DNA from: Isoetes taiwanensis
Taxonomy: Eukaryota; Streptophyta; Lycopodiopsida; Isoetales; Isoetaceae
DNA: 64,000 bases
Reading direction: 5' to 3'
Assembly (NCBI GenBank): GCA_021234155.1
Contig: JAJEKV010000025.1
Location: 15,716,036 to 15,780,035, forward strand
In this document: positions 13,900-43,729 of the stretch, piece after piece
How positions within the stretch are numbered: the stretch's first letter is position 1
Layout of the letters: the number at the start of each line of letters is the position of its first letter
Translations under genes and position numbers: made by a program
Notes under the pieces: generated by a model
The model's database searches: none
The model's input: the letters and a program-made list of their open reading frames with translations, nothing else
What the model was told of the DNA's origin: nothing

Positions 13900-14333
13900 A
13901 ATGACAACAAGGAGAGTAGGGTCTTGCTGTATCACAAGACCCTACCCTTTCTATGCTTTTTTACTCATTGCTCTTTCCCGTCAGCCAAGGCTTCCCTCAT
14001 TCACTTACCAGGGACAAGATGTAGAGGTGGCTCCGACCTACAAGCACTTGGGGATCGAAGTTCTCAACTACCACCATTGGGATCTTTGCCATCGTAGGGT
14101 TCTTGGGTCATGGCGGGTTGGAAAGCACTATATGCCATGCGAACAACAACCACAAGGCGAGTTGTATGCACGGGGCCACGATCACACTTGTTTCGGGCCT
14201 TAGTCGAAATTTGGTCCTTTTTGTATGGGGCGAAGTGTGGGGTCCCAAGTGATATCCCTCAACACACGGAATGACCTCGGCGGGTGCGTAGGCCCTTCTT
14301 GGCACGGGCCCTTGGGGTGAAGTCCACAATTCC
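13900..14333 (+). pseudogene. LINE ORF2 fragment, left half of a split LINE
   Basis: The plus strand encodes the segment after the reverse transcriptase of a LINE: YQGQDVEVAPTYKHLGIEV aligns with TTIEQVSDYKYLGIEV in the second LINE at 19060. A frameshifted stretch then ends in LGVKS, which corresponds to ELGVKSQTPYCIMLAEAG near 19670. The fragment stops exactly where the gypsy LTR begins (14334), and the homology resumes after the other LTR at 43735. Several frameshifts and stops are present, so it is not functional. Confidence 0.75.
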
Positions 14334-20480: not shown

Positions 20481-21149
20481 ATTACACAATTATTAGAATT
20501 ACTCTAAGGTAATATTTTTAGAACATTACTACGACATTACATTATCCCAATAACTTATCAATTTATAACTTCATTAAAGTAAGGTACTTACTAGCCTCAC
20601 TTAATACAAGATTTAAGTTTATCAAAATTTAGCAATTTCATATAAAAATTATCTTTCCAGGTACCCTTCATTCCTTGCAACACGTTTCAACAACTTGTGT
20701 TGCAAGTCTTCGTAGCTCGACCTCCTTGCCCTCCGGAGCGCTCTATTGGCCTGCAGGTTGGTTGATACTACGTTAGTACCATTTTAATTATTAATAATAT
20801 TATGGTTATAAAGGAACCACCCATCTAATTAACTAAATGAATGCACGAATAATCTCCGCCAGGGAAGAGGATGCTTCTTCCATCGTTGGCGTGAGACAAG
20901 CGCCTATAATGCCTATACCTGCATGTCCTTTCCCTCCGGACATAACACCTTCTGATGCAACATTGCTCATGTTCACCCGTTTTCCTAACTAATTCAAGCA
21001 CAACCACGGCATGTCATGTCTCACATTACACCACATCCTAGATCACCGTGGTGGTCCCATCATCGGTAATGATGCACGCATGCAACCCATACTTAGCATA
21101 GGCTGCATGCGTAGATTAATCTTAACTACACATGAAATTAATCTACACT
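20481..21149. other. Gypsy 3' region between integrase and LINE
   Basis: No clear coding similarity. It presumably represents the gypsy 3' untranslated part displaced from its polypurine tract by the LINE. The inverted motif GTAGATTAAT/ATTAATCTAC occurs near 21110-21150. Confidence 0.4.
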
Positions 21150-23747: not shown

Positions 23748-25357
23748 TCAAAAGCACTGTTTCATTATTTATGGACTTTCCCCCGAGTCCATACGTCTCC
23801 AAATTGAGTCAAATTTCTAAAATATGATGGTTTTTTAAATAGAATGACGGAATTTTTGGGAAACGTCTTGGTAGGTGATATGGCGAAGCTTTTTTCTATT
23901 AAGCCAAGGACAAGCCACCAACTCATGGTCAAGGAAAAGGCCCCTGTGGTGTGAGGTGTTGCTAGTGAGGCTTTGTTTTGCAAATGCGGCAAGATAGATT
24001 CATAACAACGGATGAGAATGGTTGAAACGAGTACGCCGGTATGGATTCACAATGACTGAAATGCAGTCCCATATCGCTGGAGCGTGATCTTAGCCCACGA
24101 ATCAATTGCGGGTGGAGGTGCGAGAATGAGATAAATCAGAATGGAAGAAACGAAATCAAGCTGGGCGTGTCATGAAGCTCCTCCTGGGGATGGGTTGTTA
24201 AAGGAAAACAATTATCAACTCACTAGGGTGGAGTTGGAAGCTTCCACGATATCATTGAAACGACTTGTCTCATTGGGGAGGCCACAAGAGGCTACTCAAA
24301 TTAGAGGATGTTTGGTTGCACAACTCATTCGGACCATTATTTAAGAAGCTTTATAAAAAGGAGAAAAGGCAACAGAAGATTTGTAACCAAGCTCATTGTC
24401 AACACTCCTCACTCGATCCTTGAATTGGATGAATGGTGGGCCCTCAGATAGCAGAAATTACATTGATGAGTTCGACCGGTGATCTTATTCAAGTAGAACT
24501 AGCCATTGATGAAACTTGGCACCACGAAAATTTTTTCTACTTTGTATTCGTTTTTGTCGAGGCATGTTGTTTTATTTGGTTTTATAATATGTGTATCAAA
24601 TCTATGTAATGCATTTCTTAATGAATGGAACCGTTCTATCTATTTTATGATGGAGCATAGGCCACAATCCGTAGACACCAATTTGTTTTGTGCAAATTGG
24701 GCATAATTTGCCTCGATAGTCGTCCCAACAAAGTTTAATAGAGGCATCCAAAGGAAATAGGGCGATTTAATTTCAGACTTGTGAGAAAATAGAAATACTG
24801 GTCGTCACAAATATAATTAATCGAATAATTAAAAGTACTTGAAAACTATGAGACCAAGTGTGGATGCTACCTAATACAAATCATATCGAGATATAAATTC
24901 TTATGAACTTATGAAATACATCTCATAGATTGTAATTATTGGTGATTTTGTCAATCTCATAAGCATCGCGCCAGAACCCAAACAATATGGATAGTAACAT
25001 GGTACTTTCGCCGGGAGTCTTTCGACGACCCAAGTAGCTATACCATGCAGCGGTATCAAGGGTGATCCCTTTGATAATGCATGCATGAAGGTCGTCGAAA
25101 GTCATGAGGCAAGTGAGGGTGTCCAAATGCTCTGGAGGTGGAGGCAATTGGGACCTCTGAAGAACTCTAGCAGGGCGGCGAGACATAGGAAAGGGCTGTG
25201 CTATGCACTCGAATGCGGCTATACTTATAGCCAAGTAATTATTGATGAAGCACTGTAGTAACATTATTGGGCGTACATACGACTGGTAAGTATATCCAAT
25301 AATTATTGTGTACAATACCAACAATAATTTTGGTTGGTATAAATATATATCAAACCA

Positions 25358-25675
25358 ATGTTGGCCAACAAATTTGGCCTTAGTCTAACCATGTGGTCTC
25401 CTGTTGGTCCTGAGCGTGATTCCATTACGTGCAAGATGAATCACGAAAACTTCAAGCAGTGCCGCGAGCGAGAAATAGCCATGGAAGATTGGATGACCAC
25501 TGTGAGTCTCAATCCTCGCCATTATCCTGATCCCTTCGATGTTATCATCCATCTGATATGGAATAGAGAGCATCAAATGTACATGATAGAAAAGATCTAC
25601 GGGTGGTCTTTGAAAATGACTCGAGAAGAGTCCCCTAGATCAGATTGTTGTAATGTGATAGTCATGTTGTTGTAA
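25358..25675 (+). CDS. Unassigned ORF within the DNA transposon
   Basis: A 105-codon open frame (starts MLANKFGLSLTMWSPVGPER, later RHYPDPFDVIIHLIWNREH). No family recognised, and no splice partners seen. It could be chance, although its length in this stop-rich region and its position between TIR and palindromes leave it possible. Confidence 0.2.
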   Translation: MLANKFGLSLTMWSPVGPERDSITCKMNHENFKQCREREIAMEDWMTTVSLNPRHYPDPFDVIIHLIWNREHQMYMIEKIYGWSLKMTREESPRSDCCNVIVMLL

Positions 25676-26989
25676 TCGGATTGTCGTAATACTCTTGCTT
25701 TTGTAATTTGTAAGGCAGTTCCACTTGACTTCATGTTCAACTGCTCGCACTGATAGCCTTAAGGTTCAAATTGGGCGCCCGCCCAATTTCTATGACGGAA
25801 CTCTTCTAGTGCAGGGAAATTGGGCGCCCGCCCAATTATGTCATACTTCTATTAGAATACAAGCAATTAGATCCAATAGAATGAACAACTTGACATGAAA
25901 ATTTTGTATTTCAAGATCTCAAAATGTTACAGATAAAAGATTTTATGCTTTACTTTAGATAGAAAAATACATGATATACCATAGATTCGACATATGTGAC
26001 TGTGAAATTGAGCGGGCGCCCAATTTCAGCAACTCTGTGAATCACTAAGGTTTTTCACGGATGATCGGGGTTCTCCTCCCGGTGTTGTCGGCGTCATGAA
26101 GTTGATCTTTGTTGTTGCATGGCGACTTCCTTTATAGCTTCCATCTTGTTTATGAACTCTTCATTGCTTTCGAGGAGCCACCTTCTTCATCTGCCCTCCC
26201 GCCCTATCTCTATGTCACCCATCTCTTCTCGATATCCATTATTCTCAACGCTGTGTACCTGATTTTCTTCCTCCATCATCTTGAGCTTTCTGTTCTTTTT
26301 CCGCCGACTTTGAGGTGTGTCCTTCACATGGATTCCCTCACGATCATTGTCCACTATATCATTGAATTTCGAATGGCGTCAATGACATCCCGAAAAGTTC
26401 ACCATTTGGGTTCCCCGCCAAAGATATTAATTCTATCTTTTTTATTCGGAAGATGGATAGATCCTTACTTCCTAATCCCCGCCTTCTTTATTTGATCTCG
26501 CAGGAATCCTTACTCGCGGTTAACGTGGACCTCTGATTCCCCCGAAGCAGGCGGGGAATGGATTTGGTAGCGGGGCAATCATTTGTATTTGTATGGAGGC
26601 TTGGAACCTGATTTCTTCTTCTTGCCCTCTCACAATCTTCCGCCTCCCGTGGCCAATGATTTATTTTTTCATTCCAACATTATTTCCAATTGATCAAGAT
26701 CTACACTAGCTTGAGTCAGGGTCCCCCGCATCTCGAATGAAGTTGCTTTGTATCCTTCACATAGTGCTGCACGTTGAATGAGCCTCCAAAAAAAAATCAA
26801 GGACACCGCAAACCCTCCATCATGAGTTTCCGCACCAAATATGTGCATGTCTTGGCCTCAGAGTTGATGAATGAGAGGTCCGTGACCCACCAAATGTAGC
26901 CTTATCACCCCACCTGACGATACAACCAATATGCTTTGAAAGAGGAAATATTTCAGCAAAAGCAACATAAATTGGGCGATCGCCATATT

Positions 26990-28320
26990 TCAAAGAATAT
27001 TACCGCCGGCACTCCTCGTGGGTAATTTCTTCGTGATGTCCTCTCCTCCTTAAGGTGCCGGAAATTTTGAATGTCAACCGATGGTCACTTTGTATAAAGC
27101 ATAGATTCAAGTCATCCAGTGCAGGAGATGCCGCTTGGTCTCGGGCCACGTACATGACCAACACAAGACTCTGAAGCTCACGAACTCTGGAGGTTGACCC
27201 TGACTTTGCTTTTGGATCCTGGTATGCTCCAATCCACACCCGACTACACCATCTATAGTTTTCATTGCATTGCCAAGCACTCGCTCAAATGCTCGGTTTA
27301 TAAATATGGTAATCCAATACAACTGCTGGTCCGTTAGGATACTAATCTGATCCATGAATTTCTGATACTCCTCCACGGACCATTTAATATGGTTCCTAAA
27401 GTCACATCCAATAAGACGTGCTGATGTGTTGACGACATTAACACAAATCCCTAGTGGACTGACAGTGAGGCATTTGAAAGCCTTTGAACCCTCTTCAACT
27501 GGTCCACTGAGGTATTCGTTCACTTTTGTAATAAGAGTCTCCTAGATTTTCCTTCTCAAACTTCTTTTTCCGACTCTCCGGCCCAATCAATCGACCTTCG
27601 TTTGCAAACATTAGCATGAGGTTCTCTGTGAATATGGGATGAAACTGTCTGACTTCATCCATATTTTCAACTTTCAACTTCTTCACCTCTCTTAGATATT
27701 TCAAATGCACGCAACAATGCCAATCTTCCTTAATTCTTGCGCTCTAGTCTTCATGACACGCCTTCCTTTATAAGCCTTCGTGGCCTTGATGAACGTGCTG
27801 CCTGCCATGATCTCCCTCATTAACCTCTGCAAATCCATGGGGTGCATAGACTTCATCGGCCGACAAGAATTGTTTGTGAACATCCGTAGACGATCCTTGA
27901 CTTCAATTCTTTCGCCATTCTCATCCTTCACCGCCCTCGTAAAATGCAGTTTGAGCGACTCGAGGTGCACATATTCCAAGTTTCTTCGTCAAGATAGACG
28001 AAATAATCATAGTCCCGCATGCTCTTATTCTTCAGGGTCTGCTTTGCTATAGCTAGCCATTCCTGCGAACAAAAGATAGTGTAAGACAACTTGAGACGAT
28101 CAGAATTAGACGAAACTACAATATGGACAAAAGCATGAAGGCTATGAAAATCAGTGAGCTCTATTTGGAGTGAAGTCGATTGAGGGTGCATACATTAGAA
28201 GAGATTAGAAGAGCAATTGGATGGTTGAAATTGGGCGGCTCGATTTGCTTTAATGGGGACATAACTTACAGAGTAAGCGCCTTCTGATTGACCACGCTTT
28301 CCTTTCTTGGCCGCCATAGA
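26990..28320 (-). pseudogene. Minus-strand gene of the DNA transposon, function unknown
   Basis: Several minus-strand frames follow one another with few gaps: a possible start MAAKKGKRGQSEGAYSV near 28316, then EWLAIAKQTLKNKSMRDYDY near 28050, MHPMDLQRLMREIMAGSTF near 27860, MDEVRQFHPIFTENLMLMF near 27650, HIKWSVEEYQKFMDQISIL near 27380, and YWITIFINRAFERVLGNAM near 27300. Together they suggest a helical protein of about 400 residues, interrupted by frameshifts or short introns. No domain recognised. Its place opposite the plus-strand transposase-like gene suggests an accessory element gene. Confidence 0.45.
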
Positions 28321-29208
28321 GTTCCCATTCGATTGGCGGTTGCGGACCTCCTCAAAGAAGACATCTATGGAATTGTCTTCACTATGATATCATTTGTTTC
28401 TGGCTGACCTTAACATATTCCGTTGGAGTTAGGTTTCCAAACACGATTTCTGACCACACTTTCTCGTGATAAAAAAAAATATCAAATCTTTTCAAATGGC
28501 TCCTTTCGTGAGGCCATTCCAATGCCCTGGTTCACAAGGATCTCGAAAGCAACTGTAGTGTGATTTCCATTAACGATCTAGAACTCGCATTATCCAAATC
28601 ACTTGCTCTTTCCATTTAAATAGCACGACCCCGGAAGGGGTCAAACGAACGACATCGCACAAGGAGGATGCATTTGCATAGTTATGAAAGATTCATAAAG
28701 GGTATCCACGTGTTCAGCACTGATGACCACCGTAAGTCATGTTTGCAGTGCTTGATGCATCTTGAATATGTGGAGCCTCAATTTCGAATCCTACACCAAG
28801 TGGGTAAATCCTCTCCCTTTGCTTGATGTTTTAACATCGGCCCGAGATAATTCACGCTTACTTTCCCCGTGTTAACTCCCCAATGGAGGTATCTTGTACA
28901 ATTGGCGGTGATCCCCTACGCACTATCGCTAGCCGTTTCATCGCCCCTCGCTTCGCGGATGGACTCGAGAAGAGTGGGACATCTTCGTGTCTTATGGGAG
29001 GTGCCCGCTTGATCCTGCCCTTTTTTTTTCTTCAACCAAGATCGTGAGAATGTTCATTAGATTCTCCCAAGTGTTGTCCGTTCCGGAGGGATCTTGGTCT
29101 TTTGCATACCTCAAGCATGACAAATGCATCTCAATGTTTGGGGTTTGTTGTCAAAGCGATCTCTTCTTCTTTGTAACAGCTATTGCCTTTGTCACCTACC
29201 TTAGACTT

Positions 29209-29640
29209 CTACTCAAGGCTCCCCCTTTTTGGTAACTCCGTCATCGAGACTTCAACCCGCCGCGTGTCATACACTTTGGTCAGCCTTCCCATGATATTCT
29301 GTATACAGGCCTTTCTGACCTTGGTCTGCTTGTGTTCAAGAATCCACTGCCTGACTGTAGAAACCACACAATCTCCACGCTTTAATTCCAGATTTTCCAA
29401 GCTCTCATATGAGTCCAAATACAACCCTTCATACAAGCCACGGTTTTGATTTTCTTGCTATGCTTGCCGACATTAGCTGAGGGTCATACGTGGCGGGGTA
29501 GCCCCTCAGCACGGAAGCACTTGTCCAATACGCCTTCCACAAAACTTCTATCTCCCCGGGTACTCTGCTTATCCCCATATCAATTGCTATCCCGATATTG
29601 CTTGTCTTTTTGTCCTGCCGCATCTGCAAAATATAAACAT
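29209..29640 (-). pseudogene. Second minus-strand coding relic of the DNA transposon
   Basis: Two overlapping frames appear to be one ORF split by a frameshift near 29435: the first ends in DPQLMSASIARKSKP, the second continues LYEGLYLDSYESLENLELK and KVRKACIQNIMGRLTKVYD. Length is about 140 residues. It is not assigned to a family. Same strand as the 26990-28320 relic and possibly its 5' part. Confidence 0.35.
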
Positions 29641-32098
29641 AAATCCTTCAGATGGTTTTAGCCGACTCGGATTTACGTTCGTTACCAATTTCAATGCACC
29701 ATGTGTACTTGCCGCCAAATGTATGATATCTTCTGAACTACTTCAATTCCTTCAAATGTCACATCCTCCTCTGTCTCTTTAGTTTAAAACGAAACTGCCA
29801 AGGGTAAGCCAACCCATAGTCAGCATGCTGGGCAAATGATTTTGTCCTTGCACATTACTCCCGCATTGCATCAAACTTGAAGTGAGTACAGCTTACGGAA
29901 AAGTAACGGGCATACATTTAAGCCAAATAGGGCGGCAGCCCAATTTAGTGACTTGAAAGTTAGTAGGAATGGTTCGCAAGTGGCGCTGGGGAGAGGCATG
30001 CCCATCTCGAAATTGGGCGTCCGCCCTTTACTAGGCCCCAAGACTAGGCACCGTGCCTGACAACCTTCACCGTGGAGGCCCAATTCTGTCCCTGCGGCTT
30101 GAAACCGGCCGAACTCAATGAAGGGGAAGTAGAGGTGCTTCAACTTCCATGCAAGTGATACCGCTTTCAGAAATAAATAGGGCGACGCCCGACGAGAGCG
30201 GGGAATGAAGGTGACATTGCGCCTTTCCAACACAGCCCCTACGAAAGAAGTTATTAGCAATGAAACAGGCGGCCGCCTCTGGGCTTATGAGAAGGGAATG
30301 CAGTGACCTACTTCAAGTTTCCAACACGCTTCAACAAAGGAGTCATCAAAAAAAAATTGACCGGGCCCAATGTCTTCAAGGAAACAAGGTTAGGTGGATC
30401 GATCTATCGACCTTTTTCATGCTGAAATCTGTCATTGTCGTCGAGAAATAGCTTGAGAAAAGAAGGTGAGGGAAGCAAGTCTAGGTGGCTCGAATATCCA
30501 AAGATACAAAGATAGTTGATTAGAAGGATAGAATAGAGAGGGATTAGAAGGAAAAAAGATCATTATTGCGGTAACTTCGTGTCGGACCTTGAATGAATAG
30601 GAGCAAGCTTCTTTTTCAAGCACCTAAGGGGAATGGATGGAAGACGTAATGGATGCCATGTCGCCTTGGGAAGCATTATTAAAAAATAAATAAACATTGA
30701 CATCAACCCGCCCGGTGATGCAAGCATTACCTTCGCTGGGCGACTTTCCATAACCAATAGGAGTCGTTTCCCTTGTCCTTAGTTGTCGCCCGATGATATC
30801 GGATAAGAGGCGCCGTTTTCGCAGCTAAATCAAGACCTGCTGAAAATGCTGCTATCCAGAAAGGAATATTTATAAGTGAGGCATGCACCACATTGCCCGC
30901 CATGACAAGTGTCCGATTAAGGTTATAATGGACCGCTCTTGTACCATAATTAATTTGCGTGCTCCGAAAATAATGAAGGGTGCCCCGGACGCCACCTCAA
31001 AATCCTCCTCCACTAATATAGGCGCCACATGGCATGCCGTGATGTGAAAGTATTAAAGGGTACACAATTCAAATATATGAAATTCAAAAAATATCAATGC
31101 ATACATTGCGTGAGCTACATTTAATGACACTGCGCGGTCCCCAATAACGTTAATAAAGTTTGCCCCCTAATAAATGCATACAAATGGGGGAGAATTTGAA
31201 TTCTGAATTTGAATTTGTTGAGTGATTCAAATACGCATCTTAATTCCCCCCCATTTATTTCCTAGTGCCCTCCCGTTTTTGGAAGCCTTCATTCTTGGTT
31301 ACTTTAATATACTTTGTCGAAGGTCTTACATGGCTTCACCGACTCCAAAGGTAATTTTCTTAACTAAGCTAGATTTGTGATCTTGGACCGTTTCTTGATT
31401 ATGAATCTTGTTTGCTCGACTAGTGCAACATTTTTTGCAAGATGTTTTTGAAGATGTCGACACACTGATTCAATTTCGTCCCCGGCTTTTTTAGCTGCAA
31501 AGGCATCCTTCCACTTTATTCAAATTCTACAAAGAAATCTACTTGTCGTTTTTTTTAGACTTCATGCCACATTGGCGTGCCAGTAGTACAGGAGTCTCAG
31601 CGGTATCGTTCTCTCTATGGCCCATCAAATGGATGCTTGTAAGATTGATTTTCATAAGTAAGTGCAAGTTCTGGAGTACATATGGATGTCCACCGGGGAG
31701 TTAAGTTCGGCCACTCTTCAAAAACCAGCCAATATTGTGTAGCCCTCCAAAACACTGATAAACGTGGGCTGGCCCCACTTTACTATGAACACCGCCACGT
31801 AAAGAGATCCATTTTGGCCTCGCCCGGTTTTGCTTTGCCATCGCCATGCATGTGGATCCATTTCGGCGGCCTAGTTTATTTTGGCCATTTCCACGTGCAT
31901 GTCATCCATGTCTTATGGCTAAACCATGATCAGAGGCGCCATGTCTTCCCACCCGGCAGATTATAGAAGAAATTGGGCGAAATGTTTACCTTGCTGTGTG
32001 CTTTGCCCACCTTTTGGCGGTGTGCTTTTGCCTATTTACATTTGGACCAAGTAAATTGGGCGGCACTAATTTAGTTTTCCCCAAGCCCTCATAAGCCG

Positions 32099-32425
32099 AT
32101 GTTTCAAAATCAATTTAGGGCCCCACCGATTTCAGCCTGTGACGATGCCCGCTGCAAAGATGTTCTGCTCTCAATAACCTCGCCCCATGTTCTTCCCATC
32201 TGCTTGGTAGAAGTGTACATCTTCAAGGATGGTCATCCTATTGCCAAAGGGTTCACTGGAGACTCTAACCAATGCCATTTGAGGAAGCATCCCCCATGGA
32301 GCATTAGTGTTGGTGTTGAAGAGGTTTTTAGGAGTGTCACGCCCTACCATGGCCCCAGATGCGATGCAGAAACTATAGGAGAAGCCAAAGGATCCTTCAT
32401 TCTTTGGAGAGGAAGACGTCCGTGA
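32099..32425 (+). pseudogene. Possible accessory domain of the transposon protein
   Basis: The frame reads CLVEVYIFKDGHPIAKGF, then GVEEVFRSVTPYHGP and ETIGEAKGSFILWRG. The spacing CL...hPIAxG...GEAxGSFIxW recalls a small domain found in plant transposon proteins next to transposase-like regions (DUF8039-type). That assignment is from memory and unsearched. It is on the same strand as, and 0.6 kb before, the 33-kb transposase-like region, so both may belong to one multi-exon gene. Confidence 0.4.
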
Positions 32426-32999
32426 ATCCAATGTAGAGGATGTCGGGTCCACCTCTAAAAAAACAGAGTGGAATCAACTATGGGACTTATCCCCAGACTA
32501 GATACACTTTTACCGAGAAGGACTGTGGAAATATGGCACTCTTGCATCTCCATTCCCTTTGGAAAGGGGTTCATATCCCTTTACAGGCCCGATGATGCAA
32601 AGATCACGATCGGTTCTTAGGGTTGAAATGCATTGGGTGACAATTGTTGAGGGTTACCCGACTCCTCCCAAGTGAATTTCCGGCCGGGGCTTGTTTACAG
32701 TACCCAAAAGCGGTATGCTTGTGAGGTGGAGTAACGAATATGTTACAATGGATGGTGTAAAGGTGTCTGAAAAATCTTGATTTAAAGCCAACTGAAAGCA
32801 ATCAAATATTCCCTCAAGTCATTGGGAGGCTAGTCCGTGAGAAGGCCCGCACCCCGGCCGGGAATCTCAAAGTCGTGGTATCCGGAAATGGAAAGCACAA
32901 TACATCGAGGGTGCGCGCAAAAAGCGGCAGCAGGAACCGTGGTACTTTCTGCCGCCGCGGCATCTACCTTTAAATCAGGGAGGCTGTTTTCTCAATGTT

Positions 33000-34600
33000 C
33001 GTGAAGGGAGAATTATTAATCATTGCCTCAACACCGAAGTCGGAGGAATGAAGAAGGCATCCTGAAAACATCGGAAGTTGCCCGCAATGTTTAAAAACAA
33101 GCATCCTAGAAGAGGTGAATGTAGAAGTCATGGCACCAGCAAAGCAAGAAAGTATCACCAAATTTCCATAGAACTTGGAAAAGGAGCTTCATGGATGTCG
33201 ATGATTGCAAAAAAAATTCGTTCTCCGATATGTGATACATGCGAGGTCATTCGTACAAAGTTGTTGAAGACAAAGGATGAGGCGTAAAGGCGAATATTGC
33301 ATGATCGTGAGAAGAGCACATAGATTGGAGCAAGCCTCCCCGCTGTACCCAATCTTGGTCGTGGAGATTGTTGTCCCATAGGCATCCCAAAGACTATGTT
33401 TGTATAATTCATGATAAGATGGACCAGCAAAGACAATGATTCCTAAATTGCAGCAATCGGTGAAGTCACTTTGGAGACCGGATAAACTTAAAACATCATT
33501 GACGGTGCTCTCCTCCATGGTCATGGGAGGGGAAGCTATGGAAACTTTGCTTTGGATCTATGGCCGATGACTCAACTTCCATGTCGGTTCTTTGAATAGT
33601 ATCTTGAGAAGACTTGAGATGGTTCATGAGTATCCCGGAGGCCATCTTTCAATCAGGCCGGAAACTTCAGCTCCAACTTGGGTGACTTCCTTTAGGCGTA
33701 ATAATCGCGGCACTCAAATCGAATTGGCACTCACTAATAGCAACATCCTTCGCAAGCTTGCACGCAGAAGGACCTTCTTTCAAGCCCCCCCCGAACATTG
33801 TTGCTGCGGATCGACAATGCTTGGGTCAAAACAAAAAAAATGTATGTTTTCTCATATCTTTCATACCTAGTATATCTTGGTGTGTTCGGGAGATAGAGTT
33901 GGGTTTCATGATGCCCGGACATACACATGAAGACATTGATGCTATGTTTGGCGACTTCTCCTCCACTCTAAAGAAGGCCGAGGTGCTGACCATGCCCCAT
34001 TGTTATATGAGTTCCACAAATGCAATTTAAATGGACACAGTACATTGTTGATAAAGTGCCGTATTGAAGGGGTTTTATAGAAGGTACATTGCCCGACGGC
34101 GATGATAGATTGATAGGCCACACCACCCCACGACATTCAAATTTGCAATGAATGGAGAGTGGCATCATATTACAAAACCCGTCCGTGCTTCTTGGATTGG
34201 GCGCCTCAAAGGCGGTAAAAAATGTGGAAGGAAGGGAGAGACGGGAAAAGCCCATGATGCTGTAGAGGGAACACCCAAGTTGCTTAAACCAAAACCAATG
34301 ATTAAGGACCTTGGCGATTCTGAAAACAAGATCCACAAGCACATCCTTCATTGGGTTGCAATATCCACAAGCAAAGGGCACCCGGAAGCTTGACCAACTA
34401 TTCAAGACAATTCACATTTCACCATCAGTATTGGATGGGTCTTTACTACGAGGAGCTAGGGAAGATTTGTTCCTAAGAGTTATGAGGACTTTTTGGCCAT
34501 GCACCCGGCAAGAAGGAGTTCACTTCAGTAATGGTTGCATTACCCGCGATAATTGCAAGCATCGGCTCCTCCATACGTGGGACCATTGAAGGATAAACCC
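33000..34600 (+). pseudogene. GHTHEDID-motif transposase-like protein (DUF7869-like)
   Basis: Frameshifted plus-strand coding sequence. In order: RSPICDTCEVIRTKLLK near 33220 (a CDxC motif), YVCIIHDKMDQ near 33395, FKPPPNIVAADRQCLGQNK near 33780, GFMMPGHTHEDIDAMFGDF near 33905, and MNGEWHHITKPVRASWIG near 34150. The combination of a CDxC pair, a D-M-DQ segment and a GHTHEDID box matches a family of large uncharacterised proteins in plants and invertebrates (DUF7869-type, from memory), often suspected of transposon origin. The acidic residues could be catalytic. At least four frame breaks make it inactive as read. Confidence 0.6.
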
Positions 34601-35058
34601 ATACGAATTCAATCCATTTCAAGGGCGTGAAGAAAGGTATGTTCATTATATGCGTCCATTATGACGTGTTGTGTCCCATGGGTAGGGTATGCCACGGAGG
34701 AGCCAAATGGATGATAAGAAGGAGAACTTTGAGACAAGATGCAGTCACTTGGTGGGAGCCTGTCCCGTAAAAGGAACCAAGTGTACCCGGCCAATTATAT
34801 AAACCGTTGGAAGAAAAGATGAGGCCAACCACTGCTAGTGATCGCATTGAGTTGGAGACAATCGACTTTGCTTGGTCTCCATCGAGCAGGAAGAAGCTCC
34901 CCAACACTATCAAGATTCCAAAGGTTCGCTCTTGAAGCATATTACGACCCTCGCCTGGTGATGCTTGTTAGTGTGGGAAAATTGTTATTGAAGCAGGTCT
35001 CCAAAAAATGGTCCATAAATTCAGGTTTTGTACAAAAATAATGAAATTGTGCTTTCAA

Positions 35059-35542
35059 GCTGCCATCCTTCTTCTTCACAAAAAGGATGGGTGCCCCAAA
35101 TGGTGAGACGCTAGGCCTAATGAACCCTAGGTCAAGCAACTCCTGCAATTGCTTCTTCAACTTCGGCTAGCTCTTGCGTTAAGTCATCCTATCACGGTGC
35201 TTTGCTCGTCGGTTTTTCAGACAGTTCGAGTGCTATCTCACACTCGACTCCCCTGTAAAGAGGAAGCTGCTTGATCTCATCTGGGAAGAGATCATGGAAC
35301 TCCTTTAGCAACTTAGCTACCTGCTTTGGTAATTTGCTGAGCACCTTATCTTTCTGGCTTTCTTCTGACTCGGGCTCTTCGATCTGAAGCTTGAAGATAA
35401 AGGCTATCTGCTCGCTCTTTATGCACTTGAGCAGCCGCTTACTAGACATACATTGTATGATAGGAACAACTTCCTTACCTGCAATTTCTATGATCTTGCC
35501 GGTCTTGCTCAGCTGTTCTTGGGCATCTAGCTGCATACACAA
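35059..35542 (-). pseudogene. pol: Gypsy pol, start of reverse transcriptase
   Basis: From 35542 down: a pre-RT linker (IIEIAGKEVVPIIQCMSSK), LLKEFHDLFPDEIKQLPLY, then [20 protein letters not shown] and FVKKKDGSL, the standard N-terminal Ty3/gypsy RT motifs. The frame is lost once, near 35165. Coding stops at the transposon boundary (35058) and the next codon, Arg of RMCINYR, is at 23747. No aspartic protease DTG/DSG motif was found upstream. Confidence 0.88.
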
Positions 35543-36480
35543 GTAGATCGTAGCCTTATGGTTAGCTTTGTTTGTTTTATTGCATTGTATGTGTTTGCTG
35601 ATATAGTTGTGGAAGCAAAATACATCAACAAAATATTTAGAATGCCAAACAAAATGTATTTATATATAGGAGTGGTTTAGGGTTGATGCGGCGTGTTTCA
35701 TAGGAGCCACGTTGATCTGTAAGAACCCTAAAATGCATTTTCCCTTTGCCTATAGAATTAGGTATACGGAAATATAAATTACAATGTTGACCCTTCATCA
35801 TTAAAATTCTATCATTTAAGTGCCACACGTATTATACCTTTCCTCACATGGAGAAAGGCAGAGCTGGATTACCTTTTCCCGCTGCACAAATGTGTCAGAT
35901 GCATTATCTCAAAGCGGTATCAAATCAATAAGGTATATGCTAGATAAAGCATTAACATAAAGGCTAGATTGCTATTTAGATAACCCTTTATCTTGTAAAT
36001 TACCAAATTCCATGGTTACGTACCCATAACCCTTATAGTTAATAAGCTTTTGTAACCTTAAGTGGTTATCTTTAACATTAAAAAACTTTGACCATCATGA
36101 CTTTTAATATATTCAGTTAGAATATAGTAGTCCTTGGGCCCTCAACAAGTGGTGCTAAATACTGAAGGATGAGTCACCTGCCTAGATATGCATCCATATG
36201 GCAATATTAACTTATGCTAAAGGATCTGAAAATATTTTGTTACTCTCATTTATCAGGATATAACCATGGAGTCCTAGTAATTGCCACGTTAACATATATG
36301 TTACCATATAGATGGTCCCCTAAGGTGTTATCCATAGTATTTTAGGGGATTCCTTTCACTCTTATGCTATTAACTGTAAGATATTCCCTTACTGCTAAGT
36401 CAACAGATATTCAACAATTAAAGCCTACCCAACCTCTTGGATATATGTATATGTATATATAGATATATATAGAAAACTTA
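35543..36480. other. AT-rich segment without genes
   Basis: No coding similarity. A TATATG-rich tract lies at 36440-36472. The abrupt composition change from the flanking GC-richer sequence suggests a separate insertion within the gypsy element. Termini were not identified. Confidence 0.4.
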
Positions 36481-37760
36481 GTTACAATGCTTCCGAAATC
36501 AAGCATCTAACTATTCTTGGAATCGCCGGCGGGATGGGTTATCCTCAAGGAACTTCTTAACCTGGGTCGTTCCTACCGAGCGTCCCAAGTTCCTGAGGAT
36601 GTTCGTTGGTGTTCCGCCCTGCCAGGCTGTCACCAAGTCTTCCACTCTGCCGGTCGGATCACGTAGGCCGTCGTCCTTTGCCCCATTAACTCGTCTTCCG
36701 GTAGGGTACCGCTTTACAAGATATCGGTGGCCACCATTCTCTTGACTAGGATGACATGGTCAACTGTTGGAATGTCGAGCATGCCTACAAAAGCCCGAGG
36801 TGCGATGAGCATGAATACTCCTTCTTCGCCCTTGGGCTGAATTTGGGTGGATGACCGCTATTCCCCGGCCCTCCAATCAAGGAAGGTAATACCTTAGGGA
36901 CTTGTCCCTGCCCGTTCTTGTTGATTCTTCGGCCGGGTCGGGGCACTAGCTCTATGCCTTCCCGCGATATTCATCCCGTGCACCTCCGTCGGTCTCGTAC
37001 TTCCTTATTGTTGATCTTGAGCACTGCCGGGTTGATCTACGCCTCTTCTCACGGACACCCATGGAAGCTGGTGTGCGAAGAACTTCGACATCATCTTGCT
37101 ATATGCTGAATATCCGGGTCGACTCCGGTGTAGGTGTCGGCTTCTTACGTTGATTGGGGAAGTGGGAAGCTTCCGATCGATAAACTCATCCGGTCGGTTG
37201 TTGCCGCGAGGTGCGGCAACTCATCGCCTTTATACTCCCCGGCTGCGCATTGGGGAGGTTGGATGTCACTTTCGAGGGCAAATACTCGGCCGTTGATGAT
37301 GATGGGGGCTAGGCTTGTGATACGGCGGCGGGGAACAATCCACAGGGTATCGAGGTCTGGTCAAAAGGATTTGGATCTCACCCTTCCTTTTGCCGCTCCT
37401 AGTCCGGGTTGAACTTCGGCGTAGTCTTCATCGTCCCGTGATCGAGCTCTTCATCTTCGGCTCTTCCTTCTTGCTCCGCTTTGATATTGCAAGAGGAGCT
37501 GACCTTCTTTGAAGAGGCTAAGGGTCTACATCCATGGCCGGATGGATGGTTCCCGATTGGGTTCTCAAGGGTGAGAGAAAAGATGGCTATGGCAAATGTA
37601 TAGGAGAAATATTTCGCCCTATTAACCATCATGACCATGTAATCGCAACCTAGCAGCTTTGTTGTTCGTGTACTTGGCAATGTTAGGGACATAAGCCCAA
37701 GGTTGCTTGGAGGATTGCTTAGGAACAAAATATCTTGTACAAGGGGAAGGCTATTAAGGA
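36481..37760 (-). other. Degenerate coding-like region, possibly gag/protease
   Basis: The minus strand contains short open stretches such as VFMLIAPRAFVGMLDIPTVD near 36800 and ILRNLGRSVGTTQVKKFLED near 36570. GC content is higher than in the neighbours. Its position between the histone-like ORF and the RT would suit gag or protease, but no zinc knuckle or protease motif is visible. I do not assign it. Confidence 0.3.
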
Positions 37761-37844
37761 TGGTCCTACCTAGCTTGGAACTTCGATCATGACTTCCATA
37801 TAGGATGGGGTTGCCGCAAGGTGGCTTGGATGCGGGGGAATAAA

Positions 37845-38362
37845 TTACTAATCGCGATCGATCCGCGACAGATCTAAGATTCTAGAATAGAGGCGAGCAT
37901 GCATGTCTTGCATGCATGCATCGCGGCGCATGCCCTTTACGGCTAGGGTTTCGCTATTTTAGGGGCGTGGTTCTGCATCTTCGCCTCATCGGTGGCTTCC
38001 TCTTCTCTCGCCATTACCTTATTCTCTTTTGATTTGTTTCCGGGCGGGGAGGGCTTCTTCCTCGCCTTGGTTTGGCCTAAGTTGGCGTTTCTTTCTTGTC
38101 CCTTTTCTTTGGCCTTTGTCCCCGGACCTTTCGCCCTCGATCCTAGTTTGGAAGGAAGTTCTGCGGTATTGGTGGTTTGTTGGTTCATGCGAGCCCTATT
38201 CTAGAATCGCATCGATCCGCGACGGAATCGGCATTCTAGAATAGGGCGTAGCATGTTCTTGCATGCATGTTGCCCTTTACGCTAGGGTTTCGCTATTTTT
38301 TAGCGTGGTTATCTTCGCCTCATCGGCGCTTCCTCTTCTCTCAGTGCATCCTTATTCTCTTT
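37845..38362. repeat. Two direct copies of a ~160-bp unit
   Basis: Units at about 37845-38030 and 38205-38362 share GATCCGCGAC, ATTCTAGAATAG, GCTAGGGTTTCGCTATTTT and CTTCGCCTCATCGG. The sequence between contains a Lys/Glu/Pro-rich minus-strand ORF (38188-37943) of low complexity. Confidence 0.75.
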
Positions 38363-38858
38363 GAACCCACCCTCCCCCCCCTTCTTTGTTTATTGTATTG
38401 TGCATAAATTTTTTGTTTATCATGTTCTTCTTCCACCGTGATGCTATCCTCTGGTATGTTTGTGTTGTCTCGTTTGTTGTGTTGGTGATGTGCAGGTTCA
38501 GGTTGGCGAGTGGCATCTGTTTCGACTTCTCCATGCGGGGGTTTTTGGGAGCGATTTTTATGCCTTCCGTTTGTCTAAGCCCTTTGCGTCGGCTTATCAC
38601 TAGGGTTTTTTCTCGAAAACCGAAAGGGTGGGTTTTTTAATCCCTGATAAGCTTTCGTGGTACATCACCCACTCATCTATTAGCATTGTATTTTTTGGGG
38701 TCCAAATGATATAATTGGATTTCCCCTTTATTTTTTGTGGATAGTTCGCATGTGTGCGGCTATCCACTGTCCACCATTGTAGAAAATCTGCTGAGATGAA
38801 TGAGAAGCCTATCTATAGGCGGTTTGTTGGTTCATGCGAGCCCTATTCTAGAATCGCA
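38174..38858. repeat. Perfect 38-bp direct repeat pair
   Basis: The 38-mer beginning GGTTTGTTGGTTCATGCGAG is identical at 38174-38211 and 38821-38858. The 609 bp between could be an insertion or a duplicated segment. It carries no recognised gene. Confidence 0.8.
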
Positions 38859-38867
38859 TATTTCTTA

Positions 38868-39415
38868 TTAGCCAGAATGACTTTAGCTAAACTTGCTCGA
38901 TATTAATCCCAAAACTTTCTGTGGTTTAGCTAAACTCTACACATTTTTCCTCTTATACTTTCTAGCATTTAGCTAAACTAACCCAAACATGGTGTGGCCA
39001 ACAAAAAATATTAAGCCAAATTACTATACCTTTTCCAATATATTCCATTTATTTTGGTCATTTTCTTTGTGAAAACATTCTAAAATAATGCTAACTAACA
39101 AAGTCTAGGACTCAAATTAATTCATACTGCTAGAAACTAAACTATTGATCATATATTTCATGTAAACTAGAATGATATTAGCTAAACTAGCCCGAAATTC
39201 ATTCTAAAAGTTTCTATGGTTTAGTTAAACAATACAAAATTTCATTCTCCTACTTTCTAGCATTTGGCTAAAGAGCTCCAAGATTGGTGCAGTCCCGAAA
39301 AAAGTTAAGCTAAAATTATTATTTTTTTTCCAATTTTTTCCATTTACTTTAGCCAAATTTGTTTGAAAATGTGCTAAAAAATCGCCAAATAGCTAAGTTT
39401 AGCCCTTAAATTATT
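38868..39415. repeat. Two diverged tandem copies, period about 295 bp
   Basis: Copies start near 38872 (CCAGAATGACTTTAGCTAA) and 39167 (CTAGAATGATATTAGCTAA). Both contain TTTCTRTGGTTTAG and ACTTTCTAGCATTTRGCTAA. Identity is about 75%. Tandem repeats in non-coding parts are common in large gypsy elements. Confidence 0.7.
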
Positions 39416-39526
39416 CCATGCTTGGATGTCTATCTCCTTCTGGAAAACTTGAAAAATGGCATTGATATCAGCCTCAGCCACATAAGCACTGGCGCTGTAC
39501 CAGCGCCTGAAATCTATAGTTGCCAT
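39374..39526 (-). CDS. Small ORF behind the second TATA/palindrome cassette
   Basis: A 50-codon ORF (begins MATIDFRRWYSASAYVAEAD). No similarity recognised. It is listed because its ATG lies about 110 bp from the TATA box at 39638-39649 and ~320 bp from the palindrome pair, the same arrangement as at the histone-like ORF. It may be the remnant of a second internal gene, or chance. Confidence 0.3.
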   Translation of the reverse strand: MATIDFRRWYSASAYVAEADINAIFQVFQKEIDIQAWNNLRAKLSYLAIF

Positions 39527-39637
39527 TGGTCTCGACTGATTGAGACTAGCAAACAGCTCTTGAAGCCCCTAAGGGGTTTGGAAAATTGCCTAAAAGCTGG
39601 GAGCAAAACTGTAAGATGCTAACTGAGATATGGGGGG

Positions 39638-39649
39638 CCTATTTATAGG
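39638..39649 (-). promoter_or_regulatory. TATA box, cassette A
   Basis: The sequence is CCTATAAATAGG on the minus strand (palindromic). It lies downstream, in minus orientation, of palindromes 39842-39908 and 40045-40111, and about 110 bp before the ATG at 39526. Confidence 0.5.
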
Positions 39650-39841
39650 AAAAAGGGAAAAACCCTAATTTTTGGAAAACTTGAAAAATTTTTGGGTTTG
39701 GCAAATCTCACCTATTTTGAGGTCAAAATGAGGATTTGAAGGCTAATTTGAGGGTCTGAGCATGAATAAGATTACCTAATGAACCTACTGCAACAAATTT
39801 GAGGTCAATTGGAGGTAGCATGAAAGAGATAATGCTGAAAA

Positions 39842-39908
39842 TACTCACGGTGTGCGCTAGGAGGCTGACCTAAAATTTAGCTCGAGGTCCTGGCGCATAC
39901 CGTGAGTA
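39842..39908. repeat. 67-nt palindrome, copy 1
   Basis: Arms TACTCACGGTGTGCGC and GCGCATACCGTGAGTA with an inner CTGACCTAAAATTTAG centre. The whole unit is a near-perfect inverted repeat able to form a long hairpin. Confidence 0.92.
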
Positions 39909-40044
39909 AGTTGGCCCTATTTGGTCAAAACTTATCTAAACAGGATGAACTAAGGGTCAAAACATGATGCTCTCACCGAGATATGCAGGATTGAACCCTT
40001 ACTTGGCCAGTTTGGAGATGGTTAGGACCCTTTTTGATGCAAAA

Positions 40045-40111
40045 TACTCACGGTGTGCGCCTGGGGCCTAACCTAAATTTTAGGTCGATGCTCTGGCGCA
40101 TACCGTGAGTA
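40045..40111. repeat. 67-nt palindrome, copy 2
   Basis: Same length and arms as copy 1 (TACTCACGGTGTGCGC/GCGCATACCGTGAGTA), 203 bp further along, with centre ACCTAAATTTTAGGT. Confidence 0.92.
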
Positions 40112-40261: not shown

Positions 40262-41503
40262 TCTCCTTTAATAGAACTTGCCAAGTGTATGTCCTTGGTC
40301 ATCAATGTTACTCTCTTGGCGTGCAAAGTGCGCCCTCCAAGTCTTCAAAATGTCGCACCGGTTATTTTCTGGCTGCTTCTTGTAAAAGCTAGCGACATTT
40401 ACTTTTTTGGACTCTCATGCTCATGTCGAACTCTTGTACGACCTCCTTGACGAGTCCGGCGAATGGTGCTTGGGGGATGAGAAGGTCGTAACTTCTCTGA
40501 AAATGCCGGATCTCTCGGACTGCTTGCGACAGTCTTGATCCGGACTTCCTTGCTACTGGTTTCTTTGGCGGAATGGGTTTCTCTGGAGGTGGCTTGAGGG
40601 TCTTCTTCTTTGATGGCCGTCCTCCTTCGACATAAGTTACCTTATTGGCCTGGTAGTAGGAGTTGTAGACCTCCCACTTCTTCATATATTCCTTGTAGGC
40701 CTTCAATTTCTTCTGGTAGACCCTGCGATGATCTACCACCACGTCTGACTCCGGGGCAGGGTCGAGATTGGCTTCTTTGGATCTTTGTCCTTCTCCCGTT
40801 AGGTGGGGTGGGAGTACGTACCTGACCATCCTCCTCGGTCGCCGGGTTTTGAGGAGCTCCCTACTTCTTGGTCTCCTGCAGGGAAGGCGGGTAATCTTCG
40901 TCATCGAGTCGTCGGGAGGATGGGGGCTGAATGCAGTTCTTGTTCCTTGATGGCGATCTTGGTCATTGGGGTCTTCTTAAGTTTCCTCTTGGGCTCCTCC
41001 TTGCCCTTCCCCTTGAGTTTCTTCTTCTCCTCCGCCTCCTGTTCTTCTCGTTTTCTTTTCTTCTCACGGCCTTTCTCCTCTTCTTGCGTTGTGACTTAAC
41101 CTCACATTTGGATCCGAGGCTTGAGTTCTTCTTCGAGAATTAGGCTTGGGAGTTGACTCCTTACGCTCCTCCTGCTCCTTGGCGGCCCGCTCCCCTCACG
41201 CCCTCTCTTGTTCTTGTATTTCCTGTTCAATTTGCTGCGTTATACTCTCGGGTTTCTTAGTCCTATTGAACCCTCGGTCAATGTATGCTTCTTAGGTCTA
41301 AGTGCTTGGTTGATGATGTCGACCAGCTTCGTCTGTGATCACTTGCCTCGACCCTCTTCCCGTGACTCGACGGAAGTACTTTCCTGGCTGGTGGAAGGGT
41401 CTCCTCTATGGAAAGCTCGGGTATCTGCTGAATCCTCCTCTATCTTGGGCTCTGGGCTGTTCGCTGAGTCGATATTTATGCATCTGTTTTGGTGCGGCGC
41501 CAT
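40262..41503 (-). pseudogene. CENH3-like histone H3 fold with long charged N-terminal tail
   Basis: From 40517 downwards the frame reads REIRHFQRSYDLLIPQAPF, then GLVKEVVQEFDMSMRVQ: the alphaN-alpha1 part of histone H3, with LLIP as in plant CENH3 where canonical H3 has LLIR. Past two in-frame stops the same frame gives LLQEAARK and HFEDLEG (H3 LQEAAEAYLVxLFEDxN). One frameshift later, at 40323-40262, LHAKRVTLMTKDIHLASSIK matches IHAKRVTIMPKDIQLARRI. All H3 helices are thus in order. Upstream is a basic segment (PPKKPVARKSGSRLSQAV), then a long Lys/Glu/Pro-rich tail in several frames back to a possible ATG at 41503 (MAPHQNRCINIDSANSPEPK). That gives about 400 codons against ~150-180 for CENH3. 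It occupies the gag position of the gypsy element. Stops make it inactive as read, unless sequence errors are present. Confidence 0.85.
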
Positions 41504-41722: not shown

Positions 41723-41789
41723 TACTCATGGTGTGCGCTAGAGGGCTGATCTAAATTTTAGATCGAGGCGCTGGCGCATACCATGAGCA
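41723..41789. repeat. 67-nt palindrome, copy 3
   Basis: TACTCATGGTGTGCGC and GCGCATACCATGAGCA arms with a TGATCTAAATTTTAGATC centre. Paired substitutions (CATGG with CCATG) keep the arms complementary. Confidence 0.92.
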
Positions 41790-41931
41790 TTTTTGCATTT
41801 TTGACTAAAAATATATAACGTCTAGACATATTCCTAGGGGTGTGATATACAATTCTAGCTAAACCTTACCTTAAAATTCGATTTAGCATCTGATCTTGTT
41901 CAAATTCATCAAGTGGCAAGTTACTCATGAT

Positions 41932-41998
41932 GTGCGCCTGGGGCATGACCTAAAATTTAGGTCGATGCTCTGGCGCATACCGTGAGTAATTTCCACAC
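41932..41998. repeat. 67-nt palindrome, copy 4
   Basis: TACTCATGATGTGCGCC and GGCGCATACCGTGAGTA arms with centre GACCTAAAATTTAGGTC. 209 bp from copy 3. Confidence 0.92.
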
Positions 41999-42182: not shown

Positions 42183-42199
42183 CATTGCTATGATACCAC
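42183..42199 (-). promoter_or_regulatory. Primer binding site (tRNA-iMet type)
   Basis: Immediately inside the 5' LTR the minus strand reads TGGTATCATAGCAATG. This is close to TGGTATCAGAGC, the complement of the 3' end of initiator methionine tRNA used by most plant gypsy elements. It fixes the element's orientation as minus. Confidence 0.85.
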
Positions 42200-43729
42200 T
42201 GTGACGTCCCCTACTCATATACGGTGCACTCACCGTATACAAACAGGAGTTCATCCCCCATACCAGCTCCATGCTGATACAAGGCCCTCCACGTATCACT
42301 GCAACCTTGACGAGTTCCAGTGGGAAGAATGAAGGGGTCATTTTACCCTGTCTCCCTCAGGGCCTACCTAGCTGTGGAAGCATAACATACATGTAAGTAT
42401 ACATACATCAACATCATATGACCATCACGAAGGATGGCTCACCACATATCTGCATAGACAGAGATCAGTACATCACATATGGAGATCCTACCCAAGGCTT
42501 AGACTCAAGGGGGATGACTGACGACTTGGGCCTCCAGAAGTCATTGCAGACAGAATTCATGGCAATTGGATTTGGCTGGCATAAGAACATGGCTTAGGGA
42601 AGTCCACTCCATCCGCCCCTCCTGTGCACACTTTGTAGAGTAGGTTGAAAAGTCTTGGGACCTAACTGTAGCCCGCCGGATGCATAGCCAAAGGGGCTAC
42701 TCATGGGTTGCATCTCCCCAGTTCCGATGGGGCAGGTAGGGATTGCTCCCACTAGAGGCTGGCATGCTGATTCAAGGTGACTAGAGGGCCACTGCCTGTA
42801 CTCGACTGAACTCCATGGATGGTGTCCACCACCCCAAGAGTGTCGAACCCATGCAAAGCCCGCACGCTAAAGGGCGTAGCATTAGGTCTAGTGCAATCAG
42901 TAGTCCCCCGATAGGCTTTACTACCGAGGGGCGTGATCATGAGCCGGACATGAACCTCCTTGTAAGCCGGTCGGCCCCTCCACCCACAACCCGTGTGTGG
43001 CTCTTGTATACTGAGCCTAATTTAATAGTGCATTAAAGAGGACTAGCTAGGAGCATCAATTACTAGGCTTTTAGGGCCTCTACCCCCTTCCCAATACAAT
43101 GAGTCCACGAGATCATCATCACATATATATCATAGAAGAACTAAAGAACAAGATTTAATCTAAATCACAGAAGTTAGGTTCTTTAGTTATGGCTTGATAT
43201 CTAGAGGTCTAGATGGCTGCTATGGGCAATTCAATAGGCTAAACCTACTTACTCTATGTCCGGGAGGCAGATTAGCCTATTGAATTGGCAAAATACCCAT
43301 CCCCCTCGCTTGCTCCTCCCGCCTCAACGTCCATGTTGTTGAACCGCTTGAAGATGAAGCCGAAAGGGGAAGCTGATGAGCTGGGCTACTCGATAGACTC
43401 TTAAGTCGAGATTGGCTCTTGGAGCAAGCGAAACGGAGCTCTAGAAGGTTGTGGACGGAATTGGAAAGTTAGGGTTTGGATACCTTAAATAGGCTATCGG
43501 GCTAGGGGCTAGGGTTTCCAATGACCTTTGAGATGCCCACTTATTATTTAAGTGGCCTAAAGTGCACATGAATAAATGTGCACACACTTGCAAAGTTGCC
43601 CCCCTAGGGGCGCTACTTGCTTAGCTACACACGCCGGCGCATTAACGCCGACGGGATGGCGGTAATGCGATGACGATGCAAGATGATATCGCCCCGGGAC
43701 CGTGATAATCGCGGCTTTGGAATGTTACA
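42200..43729 (-). repeat. 5' LTR of the gypsy element
   Basis: Begins on the plus strand TGTGACGTCCCCTACTCAT and ends GGAATGTTACA. Near its edge is a small palindrome, ATACGGTGCACTCACCGTAT, that shares ACTCACCG with the 67-nt palindromes. About 1530 bp, aligned end to end with the copy at 14334-15818. Confidence 0.85.

Follow-up and report, generated by a model that had tools for sequence, protein, structure and literature searches.

A lineage of chromodomain-bearing Ty3/gypsy retrotransposons in Isoetes taiwanensis carries a histone H3 gene as its first open reading frame

Histones are regarded as host property. A preliminary description of the window, by which we mean the whole 64,000-nucleotide stretch of Isoetes taiwanensis DNA analysed here, proposed that a CENH3-like histone H3 is encoded inside a Ty3/gypsy retrotransposon. 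We asked whether this histone is real, whether it belongs to the element or merely landed in it, and what a retrotransposon might do with a histone of its own.

A decayed H3 gene in an old chromovirus copy

The H3 fold in the window is real, collinear and decayed, and lies far beyond chance. Pfam Histone (PF00125) matched a 109-residue piece of the ORF at 40389-40976 on the minus strand (E=5.9e-8; 33.4 bits against a cut-off of 26.4), and the same piece matched histone H3 among PDB chains (E=8.5e-8), bearing out the proposed H3-type protein on this strand. Using host and element H3 as queries, tblastn placed the fold at 40523-40258; its last 23 residues are 69.6% identical to host H3. The fold had been called complete and collinear; collinear it is, but stops and frameshifts split it across three minus frames into REIRHFQ...FDMSMR, then LLQEAA and HFED, then LHAKRVTLMTKD. 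The start of the gene (ORF A) is decayed as well: at 41503 the window reads ATGGCGCCGCACCAAAACAG, a frameshifted form of the start that the related locus L034 has as ATGGCGCGCACCAAACAG (MARTKQ). Over its full length, the ORF A stretch is 87.6% identical in DNA to a second related locus, L032.

The surrounding element, at 14333-43729 on the minus strand, is an old, broken Ty3/gypsy chromovirus copy (Table 1). Its two LTRs are 87.9% identical over 1560 columns, with 86 mismatches among 1457 paired bases in the self-comparison, and its primer binding site is presumably of the tRNA-Met type. Comparison with the better-preserved loci L034 and L042 gave the gene order ORF A (H3), ORF B, gag, RT, integrase and chromodomain. 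ORF B is in pieces (39992-39438, 37830-37097 and 37093-36455) with an interruption of ~1.6 kb, and the remaining pol is 84.2% identical in DNA to L042 3610-6360 and matches RVT_1 (E=8.2e-16). This map agrees with the earlier placement of the histone in sense orientation between primer site and pol. The further claim that H3 sits where gag should be did not hold: H3 occupies an additional ORF ahead of ORF B and gag, and in L016, L017 and L042, the three loci that we checked with Pfam, the element has its own gag downstream. The window copy has lost its gag core, which explains why H3 had seemed to stand in gag's place.

Three further observations concern inserted or repeated DNA. Within the ~11.3 kb insert in the RT gene, a frame at 33686-34030 encodes a DUF7869 domain (PF25273, E=1.3e-13). 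In L042, two frames after the chromodomain (6559-7942) resemble, as read from the letters, a non-LTR-type reverse transcriptase of a second inserted element. A low-complexity stretch rich in GGTGG/CCACC is common to window 47405-48200 and L023 1-724.

Table 1. Features of the window element, in element order, and positions of ORF B and ORF C in related loci
Feature	Position	Strand	Remark
5' LTR, ends TGTAACATTCC...GGGGACGTCACA	42200..43729	-	LTR pair from self-comparison
Primer binding site TGGTATCATAGC	42187..42198	-	adjoins LTR directly; relatives have TGGTATCAGAGC
67-nt hairpin, upstream copy 1	41922..41988	-	
67-nt hairpin, upstream copy 2	41723..41789	-	
ORF A remnant, H3-type protein, frameshifted	40262..41503	-	start 41503, charged middle, fold 40523-40258
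67-nt hairpin, downstream copy 1	40045..40111	-	
67-nt hairpin, downstream copy 2	39842..39908	-	
ORF B region	36455..39992	-	blastn to L042 10-2063, 82-90% identity
Junction lacking gag core, then protease/RT start	35055..35668	-	L042 2218-3170 absent
~11.3 kb insert in RT gene	23752..35054	.	RT split between 35055 and 23751
Remaining pol: RT, RNase H, integrase, as far as chromodomain region	21023..23751	-	
Purine tract AGGTGGGGAGAA	15830-15819	-	just before 3' LTR
3' LTR	14333..15818	-	LTR pair from self-comparison
ORF B in related loci	L011:3206-4615, L015:3179-4684, L042:535-2004		
ORF C in a related locus	L013:7154-7627		

The 67-nt hairpin that brackets ORF A, with two copies per side, also occurs in L032-L038, L040 and L042. 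It lies downstream of ORF A in 8 of the 10 loci read of the window's subfamily (g3, defined below), 146-149 bp past the end in six of them. Across 14 copies, standard pairs filled 94.4% of pair cells, compared with 87.1% in shuffles and at most 42.5% in slid structures, and changes on both sides were seen in 24 cells, where shuffles had 9.9 (none of 500 reached that number). Two other counts were not above shuffles, namely pairs with both-side change (6 versus 4.9; 116 of 500 shuffles reached it) and further pair types (15 versus 13.6; 123 of 500). By three of five measures, then, pairing was kept through changes on both sides; DNA-level palindrome effects could be an alternative cause of this pattern.

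A family of H3-bearing elements and its exchanged cassettes

We searched the genome (1,658,258,908 bases in 1110 contigs) for relatives. A histone-family search gave 8704 first-look candidates, the best 150 of which were scored. The top 15 reached 164-165 bits, and the eight read among them (L001-L008) are ordinary H3 genes; the remaining 135 scored 144.5-154.7 bits. Frames of at least 440 amino acids hold at least 28 of these 150 matches. With the window H3 piece as query there were 7161 candidates; all of the best 150 scored E<=3.1e-39, with 62-94% identity apart from the window itself, and 17 of them lie in stop-free frames of at least 387 amino acids. Since only the best candidates were scored, these genome counts are minimum values and should not be read as copy numbers.

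At least four H3-bearing subfamilies emerged: g1 (12 loci read), g2 (8), g3, which is the window type (10), and g4 (7). We drew the loci from 20 regions that surround long frames, from 10 of the 150 window-type matches and from 7 of the 150 matches to rice CENH3, mostly from the top. As the preliminary description had it, a long charged N-terminal part precedes the fold. Relatives of the window copy carry H3 intact.

Three copies could be followed to both ends, two of g1 (L017/L029 and L013/L031) and one of g2 (L010/L030). Their LTRs end in TGTGACG...CGTCACA, with one 3' LTR reading CGCCACA, and all three have the primer site GTGGTATCAGAGC and a purine tract. Each is flanked by 5-bp repeats, CAATC/CAATC in L017/L029, AAAGT/AAAGT in L010/L030 and, with a one-base difference, ACTGC/ACCGC in L013/L031. 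LTR pairs differ at 48 of 1655 (L017/L029), 79 of 1596 (L013/L031) and 52 of 1588 (L010/L030) paired bases, a low divergence that points to activity long after H3 capture.

Pfam identified a Ty3 capsid and aspartic protease in L016 and L017, RT, RNase H and integrase in L017, and gag in L042 (g3). The chromodomain (PF00385) was found in L029, the continuation of L017 (E=6e-9), and in L042 (E=8.3e-10). LTRs, primer site and the gag-PR-RT-RH-IN order, by which chromoviruses are told, are thus present in g1, g2 and g3; for g4, ORF A was read, and a g4-type fold stands at the expected place beside ORF C of L069. The lineage's gene order is ORF A (H3), ORF B, ORF C where present, gag, pol and chromodomain. 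ORF B occurs in g1, g2 and g3, the g3 form being ~21% identical to that of g1, and ORF C in g1 and g2; it was not found in L042 of g3. Neither ORF matched a Pfam family or a credible PDB relative (best E 0.4). These results show that a lineage of chromodomain-bearing Ty3/gypsy elements acquired an H3 gene, which stands first among its ORFs, ahead of one or two orphan ORFs and a normal gag-pol, and kept it through repeated transposition; the window copy itself is dead.

How often is H3 present when elements are not selected for it? A search with ORF C gave 2834 candidates, of which the best 150 were scored. We spread 20 loci by hand over these 150, passing over three ranks with an H3 match already known nearby, and inspected a 0.9-kb box at the site where H3 would be expected. 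The fold was present in 15 of the 20 (9 g1-like, 5 g2-like and 1 g4-like), with at least one stop in the matched part of 8; five boxes held no H3, through loss or shifted spacing.

The H3 gene has also moved within the lineage. Between L010 (g2) and L013 (g1), LTRs are 88% and ORF C-gag-pol 82% identical in DNA, but no DNA match longer than 300 bases was seen across ORF A and ORF B. Trees of gag-RT and of LTRs, each holding 15 of 19 loci by length, mix g1 and g2, and holding g2 together was rejected in both (p 6e-71 for gag-RT and 7e-6 for LTRs). This mixing indicates that the block of H3 and ORF B moved between backbones. At the protein level, g1 (L017) and g3 (L042) are 77-81% identical in RNase H and integrase and 68% in PR-RT.

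A constrained fold behind a replaced or displaced tail

The element proteins have the H3 histone fold, with alpha-N and alpha-1 to alpha-3, and match Pfam Histone (E=2.6e-38 in L009, 3.2e-42 in L011, 1.3e-24 in L034 and 5.8e-41 in L043). By ungapped identity counts, which are not meaningful for CENH3 rows, the fold equals host H3 at 80 of 94 residues in L013 (g1) and 83 of 94 in both L010 (g2) and L045 (g4). The g3 fold is divergent, with 48 of 94 residues as in host H3 (L034), and agrees with the g1 folds of L013 or L017 at no more than 43 of 94 positions. The majority changes that g1, g2 and g4 all have are at H3 positions 86, 87, 89, 102, 105, 107 and 124; they fall partly, at 86, 87 and 89, within positions 86-90, a stretch that we take to tell H3 chaperones apart.

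The N-terminal parts are of two kinds. In g1, g2 and g4 the canonical H3 tail is absent, and the fold begins ~350 residues into ORF A after a new N-terminal part; some 230 residues of this region are alignable among the three, with g2 and g4 31-35% identical to g1. In g3, ~325 residues, charged in the middle, separate the tail from the fold. Among the nine of ten g3 loci whose tails were read, ARTKQTAR is exact in five, four of these with a start methionine, and the other four each deviate at one or two of these eight residues. At the counterpart of K9, four of the nine have K and five have V, I or L, and in a comparison with ARTKQTARKS, S10 appears in none. Codons of the g3 tail vary (CGC/AGA, GCG/GCC, CAG/CAA, ACT/ACC) with the same residues, so the DNA has changed and the peptide has been kept.

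The N-terminal part of ORF A matched no Pfam family and no credible PDB relative (best E 0.4). A protein search with the window ORF gave no relative among 44 candidates. The intact g3 ORF gave 1527 matches among 7956 scored candidates and the intact g1 ORF 4456 among 7938; the best 120 listed for each query all have a histone domain and cover at most 36% (g3) or 49% (g1) of the query, so that no relative sharing most of the N-terminal part is among the matches listed. Many of the listed proteins, ~240-550 amino acids long, bear the name 'histone H3-like centromeric protein CSE4/CENH3/CNA1' although the H3 fold that they match is of canonical type, and several of these entries may be misnamed gene models.

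We measured constraint by pairwise Nei-Gojobori dN/dS in loci chosen for intact H3, a choice by H3 score that lowers the values. For the fold, dN/dS was 0.042 in g1 (65 of 66 pairs, median dS 0.66; one pair was dropped by filters for dS not above 0.02 or too few sites), 0.014 in g2 (28 pairs, median dS 0.62) and 0.071 in g3 (14 pairs, with 7 more saturated; 7 of 10 loci, L037 and L041 falling out by the search word REIR and L036 by its broken end). The one host pair, L001-L004, gave 0.011. Variable sites at codon positions 1/2/3 numbered 21/6/68 in g1 and 10/1/54 in g2. Between element and host H3, synonymous sites were saturated in 40 of 40 pairs and pN was ~0.1. The fold in intact copies therefore changes about as slowly as host H3 in g2 and a few times faster in g1 and g3.

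Other parts of the elements give a scale for these rates. The N-terminal part of ORF A had dN/dS of 0.146 in g1 and 0.145 in g2. With values partly raised by frame breaks, gag gave 0.041 (g1) and 0.367 (g2), PR-RT 0.194 and 0.328, and ORF B 0.219 and 0.332. In g1, gag is thus as constrained as H3, and H3 is not singled out there. In the set chosen by ORF C, which includes dead copies and frameshift read-through, the fold gave 0.31 (g1-like) and 0.28 (g2-like).

Is the element histone a CENH3, as first proposed? We built a fold tree of 39 rows, with 7 of 10 g3 and 3 of 7 g4 loci and with reference sequences, CENH3 included, entered by hand. Support was firm for g1 (100/98), g3 (100/99) and g4 (95/84) and fair for g2 (87/89). 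The three subfamilies with close-to-canonical folds, g1, g2 and g4, grouped together (91/77) and joined canonical H3 (88/72), so plain CENH3 is rejected as a reading of all copies and the proposal fails for these three. For g3 it stands in part: g3 groups with three plant CENH3 sequences at 98/91, on long branches and with hand-entered references, human CENP-A falling elsewhere, and shares with plant CENH3 LLIPxAPF, RVT..MLLALQEAAE and LMxKD. However, loop 1 of g3 has the canonical length, where plant CENH3 rows are one or two residues longer in the alignment, and g3 further differs from plant CENH3 in its ARTKQTAR start, the ~325 residues from tail to fold and its encoding in a retrotransposon. 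Neither a single clade of all element folds (9.5 log units worse, p 0.076) nor one of the four CENH3 rows (p 0.084) was rejected. The lineage may have captured H3 twice, or once with fast change in g3 afterwards. A search for the host CENH3 gene with rice CENH3 returned element copies and canonical H3 among the 150 matches scored.

Possible roles of the element histone and known systems

We think it probable, judging from the sequences, that the element H3 enters nucleosomes formed on new or integrated element DNA or at target sites, where it would hinder silencing or mark the landing. The simplest explanation for a fold that changes so slowly in intact copies is that it makes nucleosome contacts with H4, other histones and DNA, and we infer that the ORF A protein would assemble with host H4, H2A and H2B. 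With the modifiable H3 tail replaced in g1, g2 and g4 or held ~325 residues from the fold in g3, such nucleosomes would bear an element-specific N-terminal part. Most likely they would form on element DNA, whether freshly synthesised or already integrated, or else at target sites. Silencing that acts via the H3 tail would there be hindered, its marks blocked or moved; alternatively, the nucleosomes would serve as a landing mark for the element's own integrase complex, with the integrase chromodomain as a reader beside the element's histone. As five of nine g3 loci lack a K matching K9, a single K9-based mechanism need not fit all subfamilies.

Among the competing readings, the one that fares best is structural, yet we consider it unlikely: the histone would bind cDNA as a dimer or tetramer in the particle or pre-integration complex, outside host nucleosomes. 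Its place upstream of gag among other element-specific ORFs fits such packaging, as do the basic, lysine-rich stretches of g3 ORF A. Mere DNA binding, however, would hardly demand a fold that in g2 changes as slowly as host H3, nor does packaging sit well with the 80-83 of 94 fold residues equal to host H3 in g1, g2 and g4 or with the ARTKQTAR kept in g3.

Somewhat less likely still is a decoy that would soak up H3 chaperones, readers or modifying enzymes and so weaken silencing, building no nucleosomes. The exact H3 start in five of nine g3 loci, with its synonymous codon variation, and the shared changes at positions 86, 87 and 89 speak for mimicry of this kind, but a tail decoy cannot be the common function when g1, g2 and g4 have no tail, and K9 is gone from five of nine g3 loci.

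That H3 is cargo without function, a captured host gene merely amplified like the H3 copies of fungal hAT elements, appears very improbable. Such cases are published (PMC6710886, PMC3538342), many Isoetes copies are broken, and dN/dS in the set chosen by ORF C is ~0.3. Against hitchhiking stand the few amino-acid changes accumulated while synonymous sites became saturated relative to host H3, the four diverged subfamilies that keep the fold, the long frames (at least 440 amino acids) among the scored matches and the exchange of H3-ORF B cassettes between backbones. A lone processed CENH3 pseudogene that landed in the window element, an alternative already raised by the preliminary description and plausible only for the window copy viewed in isolation, is excluded by the 150 strong matches out of 150 scored, by three whole H3 elements and by the ORF B and flanking hairpins that surround H3 in other copies too.

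Returning to a nucleosomal H3, we tentatively entertain a broader picture, which we would hold with distinctly less confidence than nucleosome entry itself. The lineage might write its own chromatin: a nucleosome-forming, tail-replaced H3 would act with an integrase chromodomain of the H3-reading type, in a cassette swapped between backbones, and integration targeting or escape from silencing would rest on self-specified nucleosomes. Hosts would then meet changing nucleosome types as the H3 cassette is swapped. More generally, the near-constant H3 protein of intact copies suggests that H3-carrying mobile elements may make part of their own chromatin.

A constrained H3 in a multicopy lineage, together with cassette exchange, would open the conflict between transposons and silencing to direct tests at the nucleosome itself. 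Element H3s would also offer a natural set of tail-swapped and CENH3-like H3 proteins, and would bear on how centromeric-type histones arise. Annotators would be warned that genes called as H3 or CENH3 in such genomes may belong to transposons.

We found no retrotransposon-encoded histone in the literature searched, a full-text search with subscription papers and most preprints outside its coverage. The word histone is absent from the main text of a 2026 review of plant transposon gene capture (PMC13317346) and from the main texts of two Isoetes genome papers, and in the main text of PMC6317226 it occurs once, for H3K9. LTR retrotransposons with a captured host gene are known; it is histone H3 with such upkeep that is unseen before in the literature searched.

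Several known systems come close. Plant chromoviruses (Tcn1, Galadriel, Tekay, Reina and CRM; PMC6317226, PMC3350952) share with the Isoetes elements the Ty3 capsid, the PR-RT-RH-IN order, the integrase chromodomain and a primer site of the tRNA-Met type; the Isoetes elements differ in having two or three extra ORFs before gag, the first of them a histone H3. Ogre, Retand and Athila likewise have additional ORFs beyond gag-pol, and some of these ORFs encode domains, for example the plant mobile domain in Ogre (PMC6317226), but these elements are non-chromoviruses with no chromodomain, and the main text of that paper names no histone for them. A close parallel is the histone H3 carried by hAT DNA transposons of Dothideomycete fungi (PMC3538342, PMC6710886). 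There, according to PMC6710886, a transposable element likewise carries an H3 gene and multiplies it, next to a functionally uncharacterised ORF; the carrier is a DNA transposon present in tens to hundreds of copies that are either recent or have been destroyed by RIP. Unlike these, the Isoetes elements are plant LTR retrotransposons of several old subfamilies, with a long new N-terminus and a fold that is under purifying selection in intact copies.
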